Shown one piece after another: positions 2,840 through 42,439 of a DNA stretch of 42,439 nt. Every line of letters starts with the position of its first letter. Within the stretch, counting starts at the first letter, position 1. This DNA is from Aurantimonas coralicida (GTDB lineage Bacteria > Pseudomonadota > Alphaproteobacteria > Rhizobiales > Rhizobiaceae). A program made the position numbers and the translations under genes. The stretch is from contig DRFF01000144.1 of assembly GCA_011050685.1 (NCBI GenBank), positions 1-42,439 of the forward strand. The letters run 5' to 3'. The notes under the pieces are model-generated. The model saw nothing but the letters and a program-made list of their open reading frames with translations, ran no database searches and was not told the origin of the DNA.

Positions 2840-3307
2840 TCACGCTCTCTCGCTCAAGCGCCGCCCGCGCGCCAGCTTCGCGCGCACCGCGTCGTGGCTC
2901 TTGCCGACGATGACCGCGAGTTGCCGGTCGCTCAGGTGGCCTTGGCCGCCCGAGCGCGCCAGCCGCAGCACCTCGATTTCGTGGTCCCGCCAATCGTCGC
3001 GCGGCGGCCGGAGCGTTGTTCCACGTGAAACTGTGTCACGGGGTTTCGGCCGCGCGCGCGGCATGCCGGCGAAGCCGTAGTCCCAGCACAGCGCCAGGGC
3101 CCGGCTGGTCCGCGAGCGGCATGTCTTGATTAACCTGCCGCCTGCGTCGCGGACGCGGTGCGGGTTGACGGCCGTTGGCGTCTCCGGGTGCGCGCCCGCA
3201 AGCCGGCCCTGCACCACCGCCCAATAGGCCGGGTTGACCGAGGTGGCGGGGATTTGCTGCGCGCCGGGTTGGCCGGCAGCGGCGCGCGTTTGACGGATTG
3301 CGGTCAT
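2840..3307 (-). CDS. Protein with C-terminal SANT/GcrA-like HTH
   Basis: The C-terminal 50 residues (about 101-150, DDWRDHEIEVLRLA then LSDRQLAVIVGKSHDAVRAK) fit a SANT/Myb-like trihelical DNA-binding domain. The N-terminal two thirds are basic, proline-rich and of unknown fold. The gene overlaps the upstream gene by 4 bases. It is the second of two consecutive early genes carrying a related HTH, so the pair may regulate transcription together; this is inference. Confidence 0.6.
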   Translation of the reverse strand: MTAIRQTRAAAGQPGAQQIPATSVNPAYWAVVQGRLAGAHPETPTAVNPHRVRDAGGRLIKTCRSRTSRALALCWDYGFAGMPRARPKPRDTVSRGTTLRPPRDDWRDHEIEVLRLARSGGQGHLSDRQLAVIVGKSHDAVRAKLARGRRLSERA

Positions 3308-3543
3308 ACCGGCCCTCCGTCGCCGGCGATGAACGGCTCGCCCACCGGATCACCGGCGAGGAGCTGGCGGAAGTGCTGGCACCGGCGCCGGCGGTCCAGG
3401 ACCTCGGCGCGCGCCGGGCAGCGGCCGATGCCGGAGACGTAATCGACACAGGTCTCGGCGAGCGCATCGAGGTCGTCGGTCTCGGCGCCGCAGCCGGGGC
3501 AGGTGAAGGGGGTTCCAGAGGCCAGGGATCGGGGATCAGGCAT
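3304..3543 (-). CDS. Small zinc-binding protein (79 aa)
   Basis: The ATG at 3543 (MPDPRS) is preferred over the upstream ATG at 3585 because it overlaps the preceding stop by only 8 bases. The ATG at 3546, directly before it, is an equal alternative. The product contains CPGCG at residues 15-19 and further cysteines at 32, 42 and 55, consistent with a zinc ribbon with an extra Cys. The function is unknown. Confidence 0.6.
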   Translation of the reverse strand: MPDPRSLASGTPFTCPGCGAETDDLDALAETCVDYVSGIGRCPARAEVLDRRRRCQHFRQLLAGDPVGEPFIAGDGGPV

Positions 3544-4072
3544 CATTGGGCCCGCCAATTGCGCGAGCCGCTTCGTCGGCCGCAAGGACCGCCTCGGGCT
3601 CGCGCCGGACCTTCTCGATGCGTTTGGTGAGGCCGGCGAGCATGGCGTACCGCGTTAAGGCGTCGGCGTTGGCGCGCCGCTCGGCGGCGTTCAATTGCCG
3701 CATGTCGACGAAGCTGAGCCGGTGCCCCATCTTGCCGAGCGCGCGCTTGGCCTCGCGCAGCCCCGCCGTCTCGGCCCACTCGGTCTGCTCGGGCGGCGGC
3801 ACGATCCGGTAACCTTGGCCGCGCACGTTATCGAGCGCTATCTGGTGCTCGCGCAGCAGGGCGCCGCGGAACGGCTCCATCGCGGCGACGAAGGCGAGCT
3901 CGGCCTTCTTGGCGTCCTCGTAGCGCGTCGCCGGTCCCGGCCGGGTGATCTTGAACGCTTCGTAGAGCCAGTCGAAGCCGACCAGGTCGCCGGCCTCGAA
4001 GCCCTGCTCGTGGAACCCGGCCAGCGCTTGGCGCCAGGCCGGATGCAGCTCGATCGGGTTAGCCTCGATCAT
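3536..4072 (-). CDS. Phage early protein with OmpR-type wing-like motif
   Basis: The 178-residue product has an N-terminal part reading WRQALAGFHEQGFEAGDLVGFDWL and a central LLREHQIALDNVRGQGYRI. This resembles the recognition helix and wing (VRGxGYRL) of winged-helix regulators, followed by helical regions. Similar proteins occur in siphophage early operons without a proven role. Its start codon lies 9 bases after the GGAG of the last unit of the pentamer repeat array, so that unit provides the ribosome binding site. A DNA-binding role, possibly at the array just upstream, is speculative. Confidence 0.65.
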   Translation of the reverse strand: MIEANPIELHPAWRQALAGFHEQGFEAGDLVGFDWLYEAFKITRPGPATRYEDAKKAELAFVAAMEPFRGALLREHQIALDNVRGQGYRIVPPPEQTEWAETAGLREAKRALGKMGHRLSFVDMRQLNAAERRANADALTRYAMLAGLTKRIEKVRREPEAVLAADEAARAIGGPNDA

Positions 4073-4815
4073 GATTCAAATCTCCGTGCCTTGCCAAGCC
4101 CCGCCGCGCCTCGCCCCGCCGGACCTTGCCCCGCCATGCCTTGCCGCGCCGAGTGAAATCCGCAAAGTCTCCGTGCCTTGCCGGGCCTGGCCGAGCCGCG
4201 CCCAGCCGAGCTGCGGCTTGCCACGCCGAGCCGGGCCTGGCCACGCGCCGCCGCGCCCTGCCGCGTAAAATTCCTGAAATCTCCGTGCCAAGCCGCGCCC
4301 TGCCTTGCCCAGCCGCTCCGAGCCCAGCAAGGCCAAACCAAGCGGCGCCGCGTGGTATCTGCAAAGTTTCCGTGCCTTGCCCCGCCAGGCCGTGCCCTGC
4401 CAGGCCAGGCCTGGCCCTGCCCCGCCGAGCCGCGTGAAATCCGCAAAGTCTCCGTGCCTCGCCAGGCCAAGCCGCGCCATGCCAAGCTGTGCCGGGCAAT
4501 GCACGGCCACGCCGCGATGAACTCGTGACAATCGTCAAAATCTCCGTGCCGCGCCCCGCCATGCCGCACCCAGCAAAGCCTTGCCCCGCCCGGCCCAGCC
4601 GCGCCGCGCCCAGCAGCGCCACAACCTCGCTAATCATTCAAATCTCCGTGCCAAGCCGTGCCAAGCCGTGCCAAGCCGAGCGGCGCCGGGCCGAGCCTTG
4701 CCAAACCAGGCCGGACCACACCATGCCGCACCGTCGTGAAAATCGCCGAACTCTCCGTGCCTTGCCCTGCCTCGCCCGGCCCAGCCCGGCCGTGCTATGC
4801 AGAGCCGCGCTACAA
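4073..4815 (-). repeat. Eight-unit array of GGCNN pentamer blocks with conserved GGAGA linkers
   Basis: This 743-base stretch holds no credible gene. On the coding (minus) strand it consists of runs of GGCNN pentamers, each run ending in GGCACGGAGA (GGAAA in one) and followed by a linker of about 20 bases with consensus CTTTGCGGATTTCACGCGGC. On the plus strand the TCTCCGTGCC marks (TTTCCGTGCC in one) begin at 4081, 4168, 4280, 4367, 4449, 4541, 4643 and 4752. The last unit places GGAG 9 bases before the ATG at 4072. Long open frames through the block on both strands are by-products of the stop-poor pentamer. Candidate roles are an origin with iterons, a protein-binding array or an RNA-level element. 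Confidence 0.85.
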
Positions 4816-5388
4816 CTAATCATCGCCGGTTACCTCGAAGCGGCCGAAGCGCGGCCGATAGGTGCCCAGGCCGATGTAACGCCCGGCGTCGGTGACGATC
4901 CGGCGGACTTCGGCGGCGTCCAGGATCTTCGGGTCCAAGGCCACGGTGAAGGCGACCCGCCAGGCGCGGAAGATCGGCCGGCAGCGCATTATCCGGGCGC
5001 GCTGGACGACTGCGCTCCTGAGATCGACGAAGCGCTCGTCCGCCCACAGCTTGGCGATAGAGCGTGGGCCGTCGTACTCGAGCCGGTTCTTGTCCTCGAC
5101 CACCATGGTGCCGCGCTGGACCGCCTTGCCGAGCTTGGACAGTTTCGCCGCGTCGCGGATCATCGCGTCCAGGTTGAGGCCGGGGATGTAGGGGCCGAGA
5201 TCGGCGTCGAAATACAGCCCGGCCTCGAACTCCAGGCGGGCCAGATCCATCTTGTCCTCCTCGGTCTTCTTTTTCTTGCCGGTAATCACCTTCATCGCTT
5301 TGGTCAGCGGGTCGAAGGGGTTCACCGTGCGCTCCGACTGCATCAGCAGCGGCGCGGTCCCGGTGATCTCGTAGTGGATGGTCTCCAT
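4816..5388 (-). CDS. Phage protein with RAMP/Cas7-like glycine-rich C-terminus
   Basis: The 190-residue product starts at ATG 5388 behind an AGGA motif. It reads METIHYEITGTAPLLMQS, then LNPF-like NPFDPLTKAMKVITGKKKKT, then YIPGLNLDAMIRDAAKLSKLG. It ends with an ALDPKILDA...YIGLGTYRPRFGRFEV segment. The beta-strand plus GxGxxRPRFGRF pattern resembles the glycine-rich loop of RAMP proteins such as Cas7. Homologous proteins are frequent in siphophages, with no known function. It lies directly upstream of the pentamer array in the same transcript. The RAMP assignment is pattern-based inference. Confidence 0.65.
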   Translation of the reverse strand: METIHYEITGTAPLLMQSERTVNPFDPLTKAMKVITGKKKKTEEDKMDLARLEFEAGLYFDADLGPYIPGLNLDAMIRDAAKLSKLGKAVQRGTMVVEDKNRLEYDGPRSIAKLWADERFVDLRSAVVQRARIMRCRPIFRAWRVAFTVALDPKILDAAEVRRIVTDAGRYIGLGTYRPRFGRFEVTGDD

Positions 5389-5427
5389 GATCGGTCCTTT
5401 CGGTCTAAACGCCCGGCGGTCGGCTCC

Positions 5428-5802
5428 TCACCCTCGGAACCACCCCAGGACCCGCGCCCAGAAGCCCGATGGCGCAGCTCGACGATCCGCCGCCGCCAGG
5501 GTGGACGCTTCGCAGACCTCCTCGAAGTCCCCGCACCAATACTCGCCCCACACTGAGGGCCATTGGGCAGTACCCCTCTTGCCGGCGGTCGGCGCGTGAC
5601 GGTGGCAATGCCCAGGATCGAATTCGACGTCAAAACGGAGAAAGTAACGGCATCCGATACATCTCGGGGCGGGCGCCACAGCTTCCGGCTTCTGACTTCC
5701 GACTTCTGTGCCTGACCATGCGGGCATCTCAAGTTCCTCCAGGCGGTCGATCTGAGCGCTGAGCTCGGCATAGTTGGCGTCCACTTCTTCGGCGCTGATC
5801 AC
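5428..5802 (-). CDS. Cysteine-containing phage early protein (124 aa)
   Basis: The start is a GTG at 5802. Residues 5-25 form a short helical or coiled segment. The core has CIGCRYF (Cys48, Cys51), a GHCHRHAP segment (Cys66) and WPSVWGEYWCGDFE (Cys90), a four-Cys arrangement common in small phage proteins and probably metal-binding. Residues 35-41 (GSQKPEA) are encoded by a short CAGAAG/CGGAAG repeat tract at 5682-5709. The function is unknown. Confidence 0.6.
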   Translation of the reverse strand: MISAEEVDANYAELSAQIDRLEELEMPAWSGTEVGSQKPEAVAPAPRCIGCRYFLRFDVEFDPGHCHRHAPTAGKRGTAQWPSVWGEYWCGDFEEVCEASTLAAADRRAAPSGFWARVLGWFRG

Positions 5803-5833
5803 GTGATTTTTCCTTGCTTGGGCTTCGCCCGGC

Positions 5834-6172
5834 TCATGGCCGGAACCACCGCAACAGGCGCGCGCGCCAGCCGGTACCGAGGCGGTTCAAGGCGCGCGTG
5901 GCTGCGCGATAGACCTCTCTTTCGACCTGCTGGGGCACCAGGGCTTCGCAGGCCGTGCTGCGCCGCGCGCCGGCCTCGGCGCGGCGCAGGCGCTCGGCGG
6001 CCATGTAGGTGGTGATCTTGTCGACGGTCCGCAGCGTCGGGCTGCGGCCGTTTCTCACCTCGACGATGATCGAGCCATCGCCGACGGCGGCCTTGCCAAG
6101 CGCCGTTGGACTTATCCCAGTCTCGTTCACGAAATCGTGAACCTCGGACAAGAACTGTTCTGTATGAGACAT
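5834..6172 (-). CDS. HTH DNA-binding protein, first gene of leftward early operon (Cro-like position)
   Basis: I chose the ATG at 6172 (MSHTEQFLSEVHDFV); in-frame ATGs at 6178 and 6205 are also possible and none has a strong Shine-Dalgarno. Residues 20-57 (ISPTALGKAAVGDGSIIVEVRNGRSPTLRTVDKI) fit an XRE-like helix-turn-helix. The C-terminal third is basic with LLRWF at the end. It is divergent from the putative repressor across a shared operator region and is the first gene behind the strong leftward promoter, the position of a Cro protein. That role is inferred from context. Confidence 0.65.
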   Translation of the reverse strand: MSHTEQFLSEVHDFVNETGISPTALGKAAVGDGSIIVEVRNGRSPTLRTVDKITTYMAAERLRRAEAGARRSTACEALVPQQVEREVYRAATRALNRLGTGWRARLLRWFRP

Positions 6173-6236
6173 TTTCATGATTTTCAGAATCGGACATTTG
6201 TACATGATCTAGCGGTCTGGACCTTGCAGACCACCA

Positions 6237-6265
6237 TATCTATGGGAAATTTCCGAATCTGTCAA
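6237..6265 (-). promoter_or_regulatory. Leftward early promoter (PL-like)
   Basis: On the minus strand TTGACA (6265-6260) is followed by exactly 17 bases and then TAGATA (6242-6237), a good sigma-70-type promoter. The palindrome GGAAATTTCC lies inside the spacer, so a bound repressor would block RNA polymerase. Transcription would start about 6230 and enter the HTH gene at 6172. Confidence 0.75.
6245..6254. promoter_or_regulatory. Operator site 1, GGAAATTTCC palindrome
   Basis: This is a perfect 10-base palindrome, extended on one side to GGAAATTTCCGAA. It lies between the -35 and -10 elements of the leftward promoter. Confidence 0.7.
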
Positions 6266-6281
6266 TCGGAAAAGTCACATT

Positions 6282-6291
6282 GGAAATTTCC
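6282..6291. promoter_or_regulatory. Operator site 2, GGAAATTTCC palindrome
   Basis: This is a second exact copy, 37 bases from site 1 and 26 bases before the repressor start at 6317. A half-site, ATCGGAAAA, lies between them at 6265-6273. The arrangement fits autoregulation of the repressor gene. Confidence 0.65.
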
Positions 6292-6316
6292 GAGGTTCCG
6301 GCGCAGCCTAGGAGCC

Positions 6317-6889
6317 ATGGGAGAGGCGAAGCGTGATATCGAGAATCTCGACGCGACCCGGCGCTTGATCGTTGATCGCGCCGCCAAGTTGGGGAAGACG
6401 CTCGCGGAGTTGACCCGCGCACTCCCCAAGCGCGGCGGCCGACACCGCAATTCCAAATTCATTGACGACTACATTTGGAAGCGCTCGCCCTGGAAGCTCG
6501 ACGAGGACGACCGCCCCGCCATCGCGGCAGAACTCGGCCTCGAGGATTGGGAATTGCTGCCCGTGACCGGGCTAGGCGATCGGGGTGCCGACTACGAACG
6601 CATGCCGGCCACGGCCAAGCCGCACCTGGTCGAGGCGGTGCCCGTGGATCTTGCGGAACTTCTCGGGTGGCTGGCGGAGGAGTTGCAGACTTTGCACCAG
6701 GCTGAGCGCTTGCCCTTGGAGACGCGCGAGCTGGTTACGGCCGCCGCCCAGATGCACGAAGAGATCGGCAAGGTGGCCTCGGAGGCCGAATATCACGAGC
6801 TGGCGAAGCGCGCGCTCCGGCGCCGAGGCTTGTGGCTACAGCGCCAACGTGCGGCCATCCTCACAGGCCGCAGCCAAGCCGGGGCGTAG
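6317..6889 (+). CDS. Putative lysogeny repressor (CI-like, 190 aa)
   Basis: I chose the ATG at 6317 (MGEAKRD), preceded by AGGAG at 6310-6314 with a short spacer. Residues 15-80 contain a probable helix-turn-helix (RRLIVDRAAKLGKTLAELTRAL, then FIDDYIWKRSPWKL and the second helix pair IAAELGLEDWELL). The C-terminal part is helical; no LexA-type peptidase residues are evident. It lies divergent to the leftward early operon beside two GGAAATTTCC sites, which is the position of a phage immunity repressor. The repressor role is inferred from position and HTH. It is followed after 12 bases by a membrane protein gene. Confidence 0.65.
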   Translation: MGEAKRDIENLDATRRLIVDRAAKLGKTLAELTRALPKRGGRHRNSKFIDDYIWKRSPWKLDEDDRPAIAAELGLEDWELLPVTGLGDRGADYERMPATAKPHLVEAVPVDLAELLGWLAEELQTLHQAERLPLETRELVTAAAQMHEEIGKVASEAEYHELAKRALRRRGLWLQRQRAAILTGRSQAGA

Positions 6890-30233: not shown

Positions 30234-30969
30234 CCCAGGAGAAGATGTAGTCGCCCTGGATGACCTTGCGTAAGCGCGCGCCCAGGCCCTCGAGAAAGTC
30301 GATCGCTTGCTTCGCCGTGACCCCGTAGCGCTCCTCCATGCCGGTCTCCGGCTTCTGCTCGACGATCAGGCAGGGCCGGCAGCGCTTGAGCGTCTCGACC
30401 GCGCCCTGGAGCACCCAGAGCTCATATCCCTCGCAGTCGATCTTGATGAAGTCGACATCGGCCAGTTCGAAGTCGTCGAGCCGGCGCAGCTCCGCCACCA
30501 CCCCTTCGGCGGCGTCCGCGTCATAGCCGGGGACGTGGACGGTCGCCCGCAGGCTCGAGCGTTCCGCCGCCGGGTCGACCCCGGTGTCGCCCGAGGAGCC
30601 CGGCGTGCGGGTCTTGAGCAGCACGGTGCCGGGCTCGGCACCGAGGGCGAAGGGCAGCAGGCTCGCGTTCTCGGCGCCGGCCATATTCTCGCGCCAGCAG
30701 GCCGCGTGCTCGGGCATGGGCTCGAAGCCGACCACGTTGCCGAAGTCGCGCGCCATCACCCAGGACCACAAGCCCACATGGGCGCCGACGTCGACGGCCG
30801 TGCGCCAACTCTTCGTGAACGGCCGGCAGGCGCTGTACTTGTGGTACTGGTAGGTCAGGCGGGTCTCGCCGCCGGGGCCGGCCTCGCGGGCGCGGACCTG
30901 GTTCATCCATTGCTGCAGGTGCTCTTCGCCATCGGGCAGCCACCAGCCGCCGGCCTCGAATCTGATCAT
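30226..30969 (-). CDS. FkbM-family SAM-dependent methyltransferase
   Basis: The 247-residue product has motif I AVDVGAHVGLWSWVMA (about 59-74), an FEPMPEHAACWREN motif II and DVDFIKIDCEGYELWVLQGA, the FkbM signature around residue 165. FkbM enzymes O-methylate sugars, commonly on surface polysaccharides and glycolipids. The start overlaps the stop of the DUF115/GT gene by 4 bases. The cluster suggests methylation of a sugar added by the neighbouring transferases. Confidence 0.88.
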   Translation of the reverse strand: MIRFEAGGWWLPDGEEHLQQWMNQVRAREAGPGGETRLTYQYHKYSACRPFTKSWRTAVDVGAHVGLWSWVMARDFGNVVGFEPMPEHAACWRENMAGAENASLLPFALGAEPGTVLLKTRTPGSSGDTGVDPAAERSSLRATVHVPGYDADAAEGVVAELRRLDDFELADVDFIKIDCEGYELWVLQGAVETLKRCRPCLIVEQKPETGMEERYGVTAKQAIDFLEGLGARLRKVIQGDYIFSWDG

Positions 30970-32420
30970 GCCGCGTGCTCCCGCAACTCAGCCGGACCGA
31001 GCGCGCGCCAGGCATCGCCGGCGCGGATCTCGTCCAGGGTCCATTGGTTCGCCGCCATCACCTCGGCCCAGCGCCGGCGCCCGTCCGGCCGCGGTGGATC
31101 CAGGACCGCGCGCAAGTCGGTGGCCGCCAGCGGGCGCGCCGCGCACGGCCCGGTGACGATCGCCGGCACCCCGGCGCAGAGCGCCTCGACGGCAGCGTTG
31201 GAGACATAGGTGACCAGGCACCAGGCGCCGGCCAGGTCGTCGGCCAAGGGCGCCAGATCGGCGCAGGCGCGCGGGCGCACCCGGAGCCGCCGCGGTGTCA
31301 AAGCCTCGAGCGCCGCGGTCACGTGGGCCGTCCAGGCCGCCGCGTCGAAGCCGAACAAACGCGCGAAGCCGGCGTCGGGCGGGCAGACCAGCACATGGTC
31401 GCCGCTTTCGCGCCAGGGCTTGATTTCGACCCCGAGGGCCTCGAGACGCTCCGGCGCACCACGCGGCCAGAGGCTGTCGCGGCCGTCGTGCTGGAAGCCG
31501 TCTCGGGTGACCCGGTAATAGCCCTGGCGCCCGAAATAAGCGTGGTCGGCGTAGTACCAGGTCCGCCCCTCGGCGCGCGCCTGGGCGATCAGGCCCCAGC
31601 GCCGCGGCGAGCCGAACAGCGCGATCGGCCCCGGGCGCAGGATGTCGGCCGCCTCGACCGCGCCGCCGCAGCCCGCCGCCCAGGCCGCGGCGAAGCGCGG
31701 GCTGCTATGCTCGCGATTTACCGCATAGGCGGTCGGGGTTTCGTTGCCCGGGAGGATCTCTGCGCGCGACCCCATCTCTTCTTCCTCTTCCGCAAGGACC
31801 GCGTCCAACGTCACGATCGGCCAGAGGTCCCAATGGCTCCCCGGGCTGGCGTTCAAGACCTCGACGCCGAGGTCGATAAGCGGCTGGACCGTGGTCGCCA
31901 AGTCGACCAGCTGCTCGTCCCAGCAGCCCGGCTTCGGCGCCTGCTTGTGCGGTGCGTGGTGATGGGCCCGGCCCTCGGAGTCGCGCCCCCCGTCGGCGCC
32001 CAGCAGCACGATCCGCTTGGCGCCCAAGAGGACGGCCAGGTTGATCGCGGCCTGCAGCGAGGTGCGCCGGACGCTGAGCGCGCGCGGGTCTGTGCTGATC
32101 GCGACCCCGCCGGCTTTGCCCGGAATCGGCGGGGCGACCTGGCGCAGGTGCAGCAGCCCGTCCCAGTCGATCGCGTCCGTGACCGTGACCACGCGCCCGC
32201 GCCACGCCTTCTCCAGCGCCGCCCGGTGCTCGTAGAGCCAGGGCCGGTCCGCCGAGCACAGGTAGTCGGCGAAGGGGTGGGCGATGTAGCTGGAATTGAC
32301 GGCGATCACGCGCCGACCCGCCAGGCGCTGAGCCCCTTGGCCCGCGAGCGACGGCCCGCCGCCCAAAATGAACACGGTCTCGCCCGGCCACGCCGGCGGG
32401 ACCGACCACTCGGTTGCCAT
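30966..32420 (-). CDS. DUF115/MptE-like domain fused to glycosyltransferase-like domain
   Basis: Residues 15-215 begin VFILGGGPSLAGQGAQRL and include AVNSSYIAHPFADYLCSAD and GAKRIVLLGADGG, the pattern of DUF115 (6-hydroxymethylpterin pyrophosphokinase MptE-like, also found in motility-associated glycosylation proteins). An acidic linker EEEEE follows. Residues 250-484 look like a GT-B or polysaccharide-type transferase half, with LADDLAGAWCLVTYVSNAAVEALCAGVPAIVTG near 395-435. It is the first gene of the modification cassette and starts 74 bases after the capsid gene, behind a hairpin. A glycosylation role is inferred. Confidence 0.7.
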   Translation of the reverse strand: MATEWSVPPAWPGETVFILGGGPSLAGQGAQRLAGRRVIAVNSSYIAHPFADYLCSADRPWLYEHRAALEKAWRGRVVTVTDAIDWDGLLHLRQVAPPIPGKAGGVAISTDPRALSVRRTSLQAAINLAVLLGAKRIVLLGADGGRDSEGRAHHHAPHKQAPKPGCWDEQLVDLATTVQPLIDLGVEVLNASPGSHWDLWPIVTLDAVLAEEEEEMGSRAEILPGNETPTAYAVNREHSSPRFAAAWAAGCGGAVEAADILRPGPIALFGSPRRWGLIAQARAEGRTWYYADHAYFGRQGYYRVTRDGFQHDGRDSLWPRGAPERLEALGVEIKPWRESGDHVLVCPPDAGFARLFGFDAAAWTAHVTAALEALTPRRLRVRPRACADLAPLADDLAGAWCLVTYVSNAAVEALCAGVPAIVTGPCAARPLAATDLRAVLDPPRPDGRRRWAEVMAANQWTLDEIRAGDAWRALGPAELREHAA

Positions 32421-40187: not shown

Positions 40188-40943
40188 TCAAAGATTAAAA
40201 TCGAGCTCCTCGACGAAATCCCCGAGATCCATCCCCTCGAGCTCCGCGTTGAGCCCGCCGGCGGGCGCCGCCGGGCCCGCGTTGGCCGGACCCAATCCAC
40301 CAAAGATGTTCTTGTGTTCCTGGGGTCGCATCTTGGCGGCCACGGCGAGCTCCGGACTTTGCCAAATCTCGTCGGCGATGCCGGCGAGCAGCGCGACGAC
40401 GGCCGGGTCCCAGGTGCAATGAAGATACTCGAAACGCGGATTCTTGTTCAGATTCATGCTTGTGAGGATCGCGATCTCGGCATCGGCGCCCATGACCAGG
40501 CCCCATTTCGCATGTGTCCGCGTGACCCGGACCGCGCCGGGCCCGAAATTCCGGATCACCTCGTCGACCGCGTCGGCCCCGCCCTTGCGCGTCAGAAACG
40601 AATAGTCGATGAGCAGGCGAAACTCACGAATCCTTCCCTGCGCACACCAACCGCCGAGGAACGCCGCATCGGCAGAGGCGGCCGTCCAGGTGGCCACCGT
40701 CAGCGTGGCCGGGCCGGTCAGGTCGAGCACCGCGTCGAGCAAGTCGACGAAAGAGAACTGCCCCTTGGTAAACCCGAAAACGTCGAGCCCGTTCTCGAGG
40801 CCGGCGATCGCATCGCGCGCCGCCGGCGTCGCCAGCTGGCGCGTGACCTTTTTCGGCCGGCGCTTGGTCGCGACCGCAGCCCTAGAGCTCAGGTCATTGA
40901 GCGATTTCTTGGATTCGGAGTTCGCCGGCTTCTGCGGTTTCAA
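40188..40943 (-). CDS. Phospholipase D-like phage protein
   Basis: The only sensible start is TTG 40943, preceded by AGGCGGG and overlapping the methyltransferase by 50 bases; the start is uncertain. After a basic N-terminus the product contains TLTVATWTAASADAAFL, IREFRLLIDYSFL and VTRTHAKWGLVMGADAEIAILTSMNLNKN, a single PLD-like HxK(x)n...N motif. Such proteins are found near phage terminases and resemble nuclease-type PLD domains. The HKD Asp is not obvious, so catalysis is uncertain. The C-terminus is flexible with GGLGPANAGPAAPAGG. Confidence 0.7.
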   Translation of the reverse strand: MKPQKPANSESKKSLNDLSSRAAVATKRRPKKVTRQLATPAARDAIAGLENGLDVFGFTKGQFSFVDLLDAVLDLTGPATLTVATWTAASADAAFLGGWCAQGRIREFRLLIDYSFLTRKGGADAVDEVIRNFGPGAVRVTRTHAKWGLVMGADAEIAILTSMNLNKNPRFEYLHCTWDPAVVALLAGIADEIWQSPELAVAAKMRPQEHKNIFGGLGPANAGPAAPAGGLNAELEGMDLGDFVEELDFNL

Positions 40944-42246
40944 TCTCGGCCCGCCTTTCGATCGCCACTTCCTCGAAGGTCCGGCCGTCGCCCTCGAGCA
41001 TCGCGGCCGCGGCGACGAAGTCCTGCCAGCGTTGCACGATGACATCGACATAGGCCGGATCGATCTCGAGCCCCAGGCACCGCCGGCCTTCCATTTCGGC
41101 CGCGATGATGGTGGTTCCGCTTCCCAGGAAAGGGTCGTAGACCTCGGCGCCCGGCGTCGAATTGTTGACGATGGGACGGCGCATGCACTCGACCGGCTTC
41201 TGAGTCCCATGGCCGGTCTCGGATTTCATGTGCTCGATAAACCAGACCGTCGACTGTTTATGCCCGCCATTCCAGGCGCCGGTCTCGCCCTTCTTAACGG
41301 CGTAGGCCGAGAGCTCATGCTCCTGCGAAAAACGCCAGCGGTCCTCTTGGTCGGGCTTTTGCGCATAGACCGCGGTCTCGTGCTGCCAGTTGTAGTGACC
41401 CCGCGAAATTACCGGCCGGGTCTTGATCCAAACGATCTGTGCCCGAGCCTCAAAGCCGCAAGCCCGGAGACTGTCAAACACCACTGGCGCAGCGAGACCA
41501 CCATGCCAAACGTAGGCGACCGAGCCGGGGAACAGCGCCCATGCCTGTCGCCAATCCGCCCGATCATCATTGCTGACACTCCCGACGGCGGCATCCTCCG
41601 AGCTAATCCCCGCCTTCTTTCGCCAGCCTGGATCATACTCGACCCCATAGGGAGGATCGGTGACCATCAGGTGCGGCTTGGCCCGGCCGAGCAGCCGCGC
41701 GACATGCGCCGGCACCGTCGCATCGCCACAAAAGACACGATGACGCCCCAGCAGCCAGAGATCGCCAGGTCGAGCGACAGGAAACGCCGGCGGCCCGGGT
41801 GCCTCGTCGGCGGGCGTCTCACCCTCGCTCGCCTCTTGCGATGCCGTGAGCGCCAGGATCTCCTCGGCAGCGAACCCGGTCAAGTCGAGATCGAAGCCGA
41901 AGGCCTCCAGGTCCACGAGCTCGGCGGCAAGCATTTCCTCGTCCCAACCGGCATTAAGCGCGATCTTATTGTCGGCGAGAGCATAGGCGCGCCGTTGCGC
42001 CTCAGATAGGTGCCCCAGCTGAATGCACGGGATCTTCTCGATGCCCAGGAGAAGCGCCGCCAAAACGCGCCCGTGACCCGCAATAATTCCGCCGGCGCCA
42101 TCGATCAGGACCGGATTCGTCCAGCCGAACTCCTGGATGGACGCCGCGATCTGCGCGACCTGGGCGTCGTCATGCGTCCGCGCATTCCGAGCATAGGGAA
42201 CCAGCGTCGCGACGGAGTGATATTCGATGCGCAGCGCGCCGGTCAT
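40894..42246 (-). CDS. ParB-domain DNA methyltransferase (beta class)
   Basis: ATG 42246 (MTGALRIEYHSV) is preceded by AGGTGG; an upstream ATG at 42354 is less likely. Residues 1-130 form a ParB/Srx-type domain with GGIIAGHGRVLAAL at 52-65 and ALADNKIALNAGW. Residues 155-450 form a DNA methyltransferase with DPPY (197-200) before DPFLGSGTT (371-379), the beta-class motif order. It would methylate adenine N6 or cytosine N4, protecting phage DNA or marking it. It is the first visible late-strand gene, just before PLD and terminase. Confidence 0.9.
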   Translation of the reverse strand: MTGALRIEYHSVATLVPYARNARTHDDAQVAQIAASIQEFGWTNPVLIDGAGGIIAGHGRVLAALLLGIEKIPCIQLGHLSEAQRRAYALADNKIALNAGWDEEMLAAELVDLEAFGFDLDLTGFAAEEILALTASQEASEGETPADEAPGPPAFPVARPGDLWLLGRHRVFCGDATVPAHVARLLGRAKPHLMVTDPPYGVEYDPGWRKKAGISSEDAAVGSVSNDDRADWRQAWALFPGSVAYVWHGGLAAPVVFDSLRACGFEARAQIVWIKTRPVISRGHYNWQHETAVYAQKPDQEDRWRFSQEHELSAYAVKKGETGAWNGGHKQSTVWFIEHMKSETGHGTQKPVECMRRPIVNNSTPGAEVYDPFLGSGTTIIAAEMEGRRCLGLEIDPAYVDVIVQRWQDFVAAAAMLEGDGRTFEEVAIERRAEIETAEAGELRIQEIAQ

Positions 42247-42291
42247 CCACCTGTGACCCCTCGAGGTTGGCGTCGGCAACCGGGAAAGCGC

Positions 42292-42311
42292 CCGGAACAA
42301 TCCGGAACAAT
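42292..42311. repeat. Tandem CCGGAACAAT decamers
   Basis: Two exact copies of CCGGAACAAT are followed by CCGGGAAGC, 46-65 bases upstream of the ParB-methyltransferase start. The pattern could be a binding site for a regulator or for the ParB domain itself. The rest of 42247-42439 shows nothing I can assign. Confidence 0.5.
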
Positions 42312-42439
42312 CCGGGAAGCGTTGCACAACGGTCGCCCGCAATAGGCGACGCAAGTTGGCGCGGCGATTCGATTACAGCCGGCCAGGTCCGAGGGCTCGG
42401 GCCGTCTAACCCCTGCGGCCTGGGCAGGGATATTGCGCC

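Follow-up and report, generated by a model that had tools for sequence, protein, structure and literature searches.

Phages carry a CRISPR-like system termed Viral Interference Programmable Repeat (VIPR), which was reported in a preprint of April 2026 as a weapon against competing phages and as a programmable means of DNA recognition that predates CRISPR (PMC13142463). According to that text, the system consists of Vipr, a RAMP homologue, vrRNAs containing 9-16 YNNGG repeats and an invariable tail, and accessory genes named vap. The transcript yields vrRNAs of ~100 nt that are bound by Vipr and recognize double-stranded DNA through their NN pairs, skipping one base of the target after each pair (NNxNNx...). 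This pairing keeps the target gene from being transcribed; the gene usually belongs to a competing phage or prophage, and some guides are aimed at other VIPR systems. In VIPR type II, the SUSP1 clade, the tail is reported to be structured (pseudoknotted). A search of open-licence PMC text did not reveal any further papers on VIPR. A preliminary description of the locus studied here knew of no described class that fits its form, a statement that was fair before April 2026 but has been overtaken by the preprint.

The window, a 42,439-nucleotide stretch from Aurantimonas coralicida (contig DRFF01000144.1), also encodes an integrase, a terminase and a portal, and its sequence indicates that the locus is part of a phage. 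We conclude, with a probability of roughly 0.96, that positions 4073-4815 and their flanks form a genuine VIPR locus, comprising vipr, an array of eight putative vrRNA guides, and vap, all on one strand. The assignment to the VIPR class rests on the homology of the predicted Vipr and Vap proteins, the RAMP fold modelled for Vipr, the GGY/NN code, the shared 3' closing, and the linkage of arrays to vipr in relatives. Features in common with described VIPR systems are a predicted Vipr-family RAMP, a GGY/NN pentamer tract, an invariable 3' closing and an adjoining vap.

The stretch at 4073-4815 contains, on the minus strand, eight runs of GGC/T-NN pentamers between genes for a 190-aa and a 178-aa protein. 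The preliminary description had placed eight GGCNN-type units here, and its reading holds, with the array on the same (minus) strand as both flanking genes. Counting the closing GGCAC, the units contain 10 (unit 1, 4752-4806), 17 (unit 2, 4643-4732), 15 (unit 3, 4541-4620), 12 (unit 4, 4449-4513), 12 (unit 5, 4367-4431), 13 (unit 6, 4280-4349), 18 (unit 7, 4168-4262) and 13 pentamers (unit 8, 4081-4150). Units 2 and 7 exceed the reported range of 9-16. Seven of the eight close with GGCACGGAGA, in which GGCAC is followed by GGAGA; unit 5 closes with GGCACGGAAA, which has GGAAA at that place. Linkers of 17-27 bases separate the units. Excluding the closing pentamers, 88/102 pentamers start with GGC or GGT, while the other 14 depart from GGY. 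The entropy of pentamer positions 4 and 5 was 1.98 and 1.95 bits, compared with 0.70, 0.08 and 0.44 bits for positions 1-3; thus GGY is conserved and NN is nearly random.

The pentamer runs are not due to chance. The eight runs scored 6-15, and the remainder of the window peaked at 4. In 300 dinucleotide shuffles of the array stretch, runs scoring ≥6 averaged 0.00 (at most 1 per shuffle), and in 20 shuffles of the whole window the top run scored 3-4. The region 3000-6500 gave no Rfam match at E ≤ 1. Long open reading frames crossing the array (192, 166 and 151 aa) were considered and taken as by-products of the GGCNN repeats.

A CRISPR array, with identical repeats and unique spacers of similar length, was considered and set aside: the closings are spaced 82-112 bases apart, and the variation sits inside each pentamer. 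VIPR fits the array better. When the eight units are aligned at their 3' ends, the guide parts are unrelated, with a mean identity of 27.6% compared with 25.3% expected from composition. The closing sequences and linkers are alike across units, the invariance residing in the closing sequence while the linkers vary. Growth of the array by duplication, as previously suggested, is thus consistent with the closings and linkers but not with the guide parts, whose lack of relatedness means that simple copying of whole units is not seen.

The gene on one side of the array (4816-5388, minus strand) encodes the 190-aa protein. It did not match any Pfam family at E ≤ 0.01, but matched phrog_4652, and homologues are present in 130 phage records. 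A phmmer search against solved structures returned PDB 36pp, 'SUSP1 Vipr protein', with E = 1.5e-32, the runner-up having E = 0.32. A profile of 18 relatives, the SUSP1 protein itself included, gave E = 5e-77 for 36pp and no other match at E ≤ 0.1. The structure model built from the 18 sequences had a mean pLDDT of 90.9, and a Foldseek search with it gave 672 matches at E ≤ 10, of which 51 had E ≤ 0.001 (best E = 8.5e-6). The best 50 of the 672 all bear titles of CRISPR complexes or of Csm3, from types III, IV-A and VII; normalized to query length, their TM-scores are modest (0.43-0.57). The structure library ends at 2026-04-08, and 36pp was absent among the Foldseek matches listed. The predicted fold thus matches Cas7/Csm3-type RAMPs of CRISPR systems, and the sequence searches and model together identify the protein as a RAMP homologue of the Vipr family. 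In a Vipr tree of 41 rows, it had no supported sister group.

The gene on the other side (3536-4072, minus strand) encodes the 178-aa protein, a putative Vap that matches phrog_5926 and is homologous to the gene directly after vipr in Escherichia phage SUSP1 and Pseudomonas phages Medea1 and LESphi2. The SUSP1 gene is presumed to be vap1 by its position. A tblastn search of the phage collection found Medea1 (2e-22) and LESphi2 (2e-20) and did not reach SUSP1 at 1e-5; phmmer in a set of only 8 proteins gave 8e-30, 6e-27 and 1e-10 for Medea1, LESphi2 and SUSP1, respectively. PADLOC-DB (2023) contained no family for either the 190-aa or the 178-aa protein at E ≤ 0.1. The GGAG of the last tail stands 9 bases 5' of the ATG of the 178-aa gene, in agreement with the preliminary description, in which the adjoining unit supplies the Shine-Dalgarno sequence of this gene; the GGAGA of unit 8 is its apparent Shine-Dalgarno. 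The repetition of this leader at 4643 was likewise borne out, the repeat lying in the tail of unit 2.

Elsewhere in the window, same-strand neighbours encode a phosphoadenosine-phosphosulfate-reductase-like protein (458-1234, phrog_424) and a DUF5131 protein (1234-2118, PF07505). Farther away lie genes for a protein matching a PHROG annotated as sialyltransferase (30966-32420, phrog_4603) and for a protein that combines ParB-like and DNA-methyltransferase parts (40894-42354).

The best 80 of 314 Vipr relatives in viral contigs (one being this phage) and 23 in genome contigs were examined, giving 103 close loci with 95 distinct vipr DNA sequences. A search of genome contigs for close relatives with the single protein gave no match. 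Among whole genomes, a Vipr match was found in 2/297 of the window's family (its own genome and one weak match, E = 2.6e-4) and in 3/289 of its class. A vap-profile match lay downstream on the same strand at all 80 viral loci, this phage being one of them and its protein being part of the profile. Sense GGY runs (score ≥6) numbered 115 within 2.5 kb of vipr (382 kb), compared with 0 farther out (955 kb); antisense runs numbered 2 and 1, respectively. At least one sense run was present at 65/80 viral loci, and none reached the threshold at the other 15. Similar arrays beside the same gene in relatives, for which the preliminary description had proposed a search, are thus present. Its view of a structured non-coding array, with an RNA-level function among its options, is likewise supported.

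The tandem units, half-turn spacing and position beside early genes would also suit a protein-binding DNA array, such as replication origin iterons or a partition or filament nucleation site, recognized by one of the neighbouring proteins. The strand bias in relatives argues against this, as do the near-random NN positions, which a binding site would conserve. GC skew showed no clear turning point at the array at 2-kb resolution, speaking against the replication origin proposed earlier, and helical phasing of the DNA as the purpose of the array was not supported either. In addition, the SUSP1 relative of the flanking RAMP homologue binds RNA of this kind, according to the preprint (PMC13142463). 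We therefore regard a DNA-binding array as very improbable compared with a VIPR guide array.

The position of the array between vipr and vap is rare, occurring in 4/103 close loci including this phage. Among the viral loci there are three of 80 (this phage, L171, with 8 runs, and L205 and L235 with 1 each), and among the genome loci one of 23 (L278, 2 runs), where 9/23 had no vap match and so could not be judged. The eight runs of the window exceed those of any of the 102 other close Vipr loci (next L282, with 6), and in bases within runs L244, with 450, comes near the 480 of this phage. The array is not a record, because 4/120 viral loci from the first pattern search contain 9-10 GGY runs, counted anywhere in the locus (L018, 10; L078, L036 and L029, 9). 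The short first pattern gave mostly single sites among the matches listed, and a longer pattern gave 4 loci. The occurrence of GGAGA in the arrays of L044, L049, L063 and L020 was considered as a shared motif and rejected, being a product of having searched for GGAGA.

Several relatives showed other arrangements. In L265 (G587), whose Vipr is more distant (33% identical), the guides of the array after vipr are joined by very short GGACTTCG connectors, perhaps corresponding to the staggered arrays mentioned in the preprint (PMC13142463). In L280 and L283-L288, from Methylobacterium, Microvirga, Brevundimonas and a Caulobacteraceae MAG, 18-39 bases separate the end of the vipr match from the first run. 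A vap of the window's family was not found at these loci, which may contain another accessory gene.

The tails of the window are short, and seven of the eight fold no better than shuffled sequences (z -0.61 to 0.42). No consensus fold was found among the eight by prediction without pseudoknots. In the same shuffle test, the LESphi2 tail gave z = -2.85 and the SUSP1 tail z = -0.34; because the SUSP1 tail, reported to be structured, also failed, the test is weak and does not establish the absence of a tail fold. Given these tails and the lack of a supported sister group in the tree, the locus is placed in VIPR without a type.

The loci printed from relatives end in GGGCTG, GGACT, GGATT or tRNA-like tails, and share the GGY/NN tract. 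This comparison bears on the possibility that the array is an RNA regulator without targets, such as a decoy that attracts ribosomes or a CsrA-type protein through the repeated ACGGAGA. GGAG is present in 7/8 closings, and their ACGGA resembles CsrA sites. However, the GGAGA closing is not common to the relatives, whereas the GGY/NN tract is, and a decoy would not need such a tract. Decoy ribosome sites, suggested in the preliminary description, thus lack support as the purpose of the array, and a non-targeting regulator of this type seems hardly credible beside a set of VIPR guides.

Tails resembling a tRNA acceptor stem and T-arm (GGTTCGANTCC) occur near vipr in L133, L134, L135, L136/L235, L233, L234 and L241, L136 and L235 probably being the same phage. 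The loci with such tails are Gordonia and Mycobacterium phage Vipr loci and some other viral ones. Of the GGTTCGANTCC motif, 18 copies were found in the 528 kb that lie within 2.5 kb of vipr and 2 in the remaining 1,260 kb; two of the 18 (L276 and L289) look like ordinary tRNA or chance occurrences. ARAGORN called a gene in 3/16 loci scanned. Guides with tRNA-like tails may be trimmed by tRNA-processing enzymes.

The code was examined with 70 distinct guides of relatives (9-20 pentamers, this phage left out) against 3.8 Mb on both strands. With a skip of one base, 13/70 guides had targets at ≤2 mismatches, compared with 0/70 for skips of 0 and of 2 bases and 0/70 for permuted guides. At ≤3 mismatches the numbers were 19 for skip 1 and 3 each for skips 0 and 2, and at ≤4 mismatches 29, 18 and 15. 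A skip of 3 was uninformative, because each array matches itself. For 12 of the 13 matched guides, the base skipped in the target is the third of a codon in the longest frame. The 13 matched guides are not independent, since three lie at one place in L180 and three at nearly one place in L209, and many of the loci are related. The relatives thus independently reproduce the published one-base-skip code, as well as the location of the skipped base at the codon wobble position. Guides of the L209 and L228 loci match, with 1 mismatch, inside the vipr genes of other phages (L184 and L183), in line with the remark in the preprint on guides against other VIPR systems (PMC13142463). Several other targets are in long frames that we would guess, from their sequence, to be tape-measure genes.

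No target was detected for the guides of the window itself. Scanning viral contigs for exact matches to the first 10 NN pairs of units 7, 5 and 8 gave 0 targets, and gapped scans with all eight guides over 275 fetched sequences (3.5 Mb of partly overlapping loci, window included) remained near background. Within the window, the best places were at background, giving no sign of self-targeting. The eight guides also had no convincing target in 774 kb of integrase-bearing contigs of the own genome and same-genus phage-gene stretches. Unit 2 was the only guide to exceed its permutations there: its best match, in a same-genus stretch, had 24/32 bases in agreement, compared with a maximum of 23 in 20 permuted guides; it is of low complexity and, with eight guides tested, is unconvincing. 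The top two candidate targets, of unit 2 in L170 and unit 7 in L288, were rejected on codon-by-codon reading. These results say little about the real targets, because they cover only ~8% of the own genome.

Exact matches to GGCNNGGCNNGGCNCGGAGA in the 4.86-Mb own assembly numbered 8, of which 7 lie in the array, the pattern not fitting unit 5; the eighth stands alone on contig C79. One pattern search and one DNA search of this assembly revealed no second copy of the array, the DNA search returning the window alone. The same phage and array are present in IMGVR_UViG_3300005253_000354, where six differences in 13,955 bases leave an identity of 99.96%. This sister contig has units 1-7 without change and an identical Vipr. 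Four of the six differences (4048, 4058, 4083 and 4088) are crowded into 41 bases where the last tail adjoins the beginning of vap, and the last closing sequence is GGGACGGGGA in the sister, resembling a degenerate end repeat. An assembly artefact of low-complexity reads, raised in the preliminary description as an objection, is unlikely because this second record holds the same array, though its reads are possibly not independent of those of the window.

These observations bear on whether the locus is a VIPR array past its function, with decaying guides that no longer have targets. Such decay would account for the targets not found, the 14/102 pentamers departing from GGY, and the changed last closing with its cluster of differences in the sister contig. 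On the other side, vipr and vap are open reading frames, Vipr and units 1-7 are the same in both contigs, and targets of natural guides may lie outside the DNA searched. We consider decay unlikely.

By analogy with the system described in the preprint (PMC13142463), the array transcript would give rise to vrRNAs of ~100 nt that are bound by Vipr, and their NN pairs would pair with double-stranded DNA at a one-base skip and prevent the target gene from being transcribed. The eight units may each specify a different target through the 9-17 NN pairs that precede the invariant AC. Co-transcription of the array with vipr and vap is probable, and its last tail may double as the ribosome-binding site for vap. 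We tentatively suggest, as a doubtful extension, that the loading or trimming of guide RNA by Vipr sets the amount of Vap through this last closing, forming a feedback between guide supply and accessory protein, and that the tails represent a class in which the guides end with no folded handle.

Comparison of the locus with SUSP1 VIPR, based on PDB 36pp and the preprint (PMC13142463), shows a shared Vipr homologue (35% identical), a homologue of the gene after vipr, and GGY/NN pentamer guides with an invariable 3' end. The arrangement differs: in SUSP1 one vrRNA precedes the genes and three follow them, whereas the window contains eight between vipr and vap. The SUSP1 tail is predicted to be structured, whereas the tails here are short and no consensus fold is predicted for them. 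The Pseudomonas phages Medea1 and LESphi2 contain Vipr proteins ~50% and 42% identical to that of the window, a Vap homologue, and pentamer runs near vipr. Unlike in the window, their vap overlaps vipr and the runs lie outside the vipr-vap pair, and the tails of LESphi2 begin with GGGCT, one of them folding well. CRISPR arrays with class 1 RAMP effectors resemble the locus in that an array of guides adjoins a RAMP-fold protein, but in the window the guide information is carried two bases at a time within pentamers, without a repeat-spacer structure. The locus, whose array was found from raw sequence without prior knowledge of its kind, adds a Vipr lineage with eight guides inside the operon. 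It belongs to a known kind of system, of which it is a long example, and is less usual in the place of the array inside the vipr-vap operon and in its short tails.
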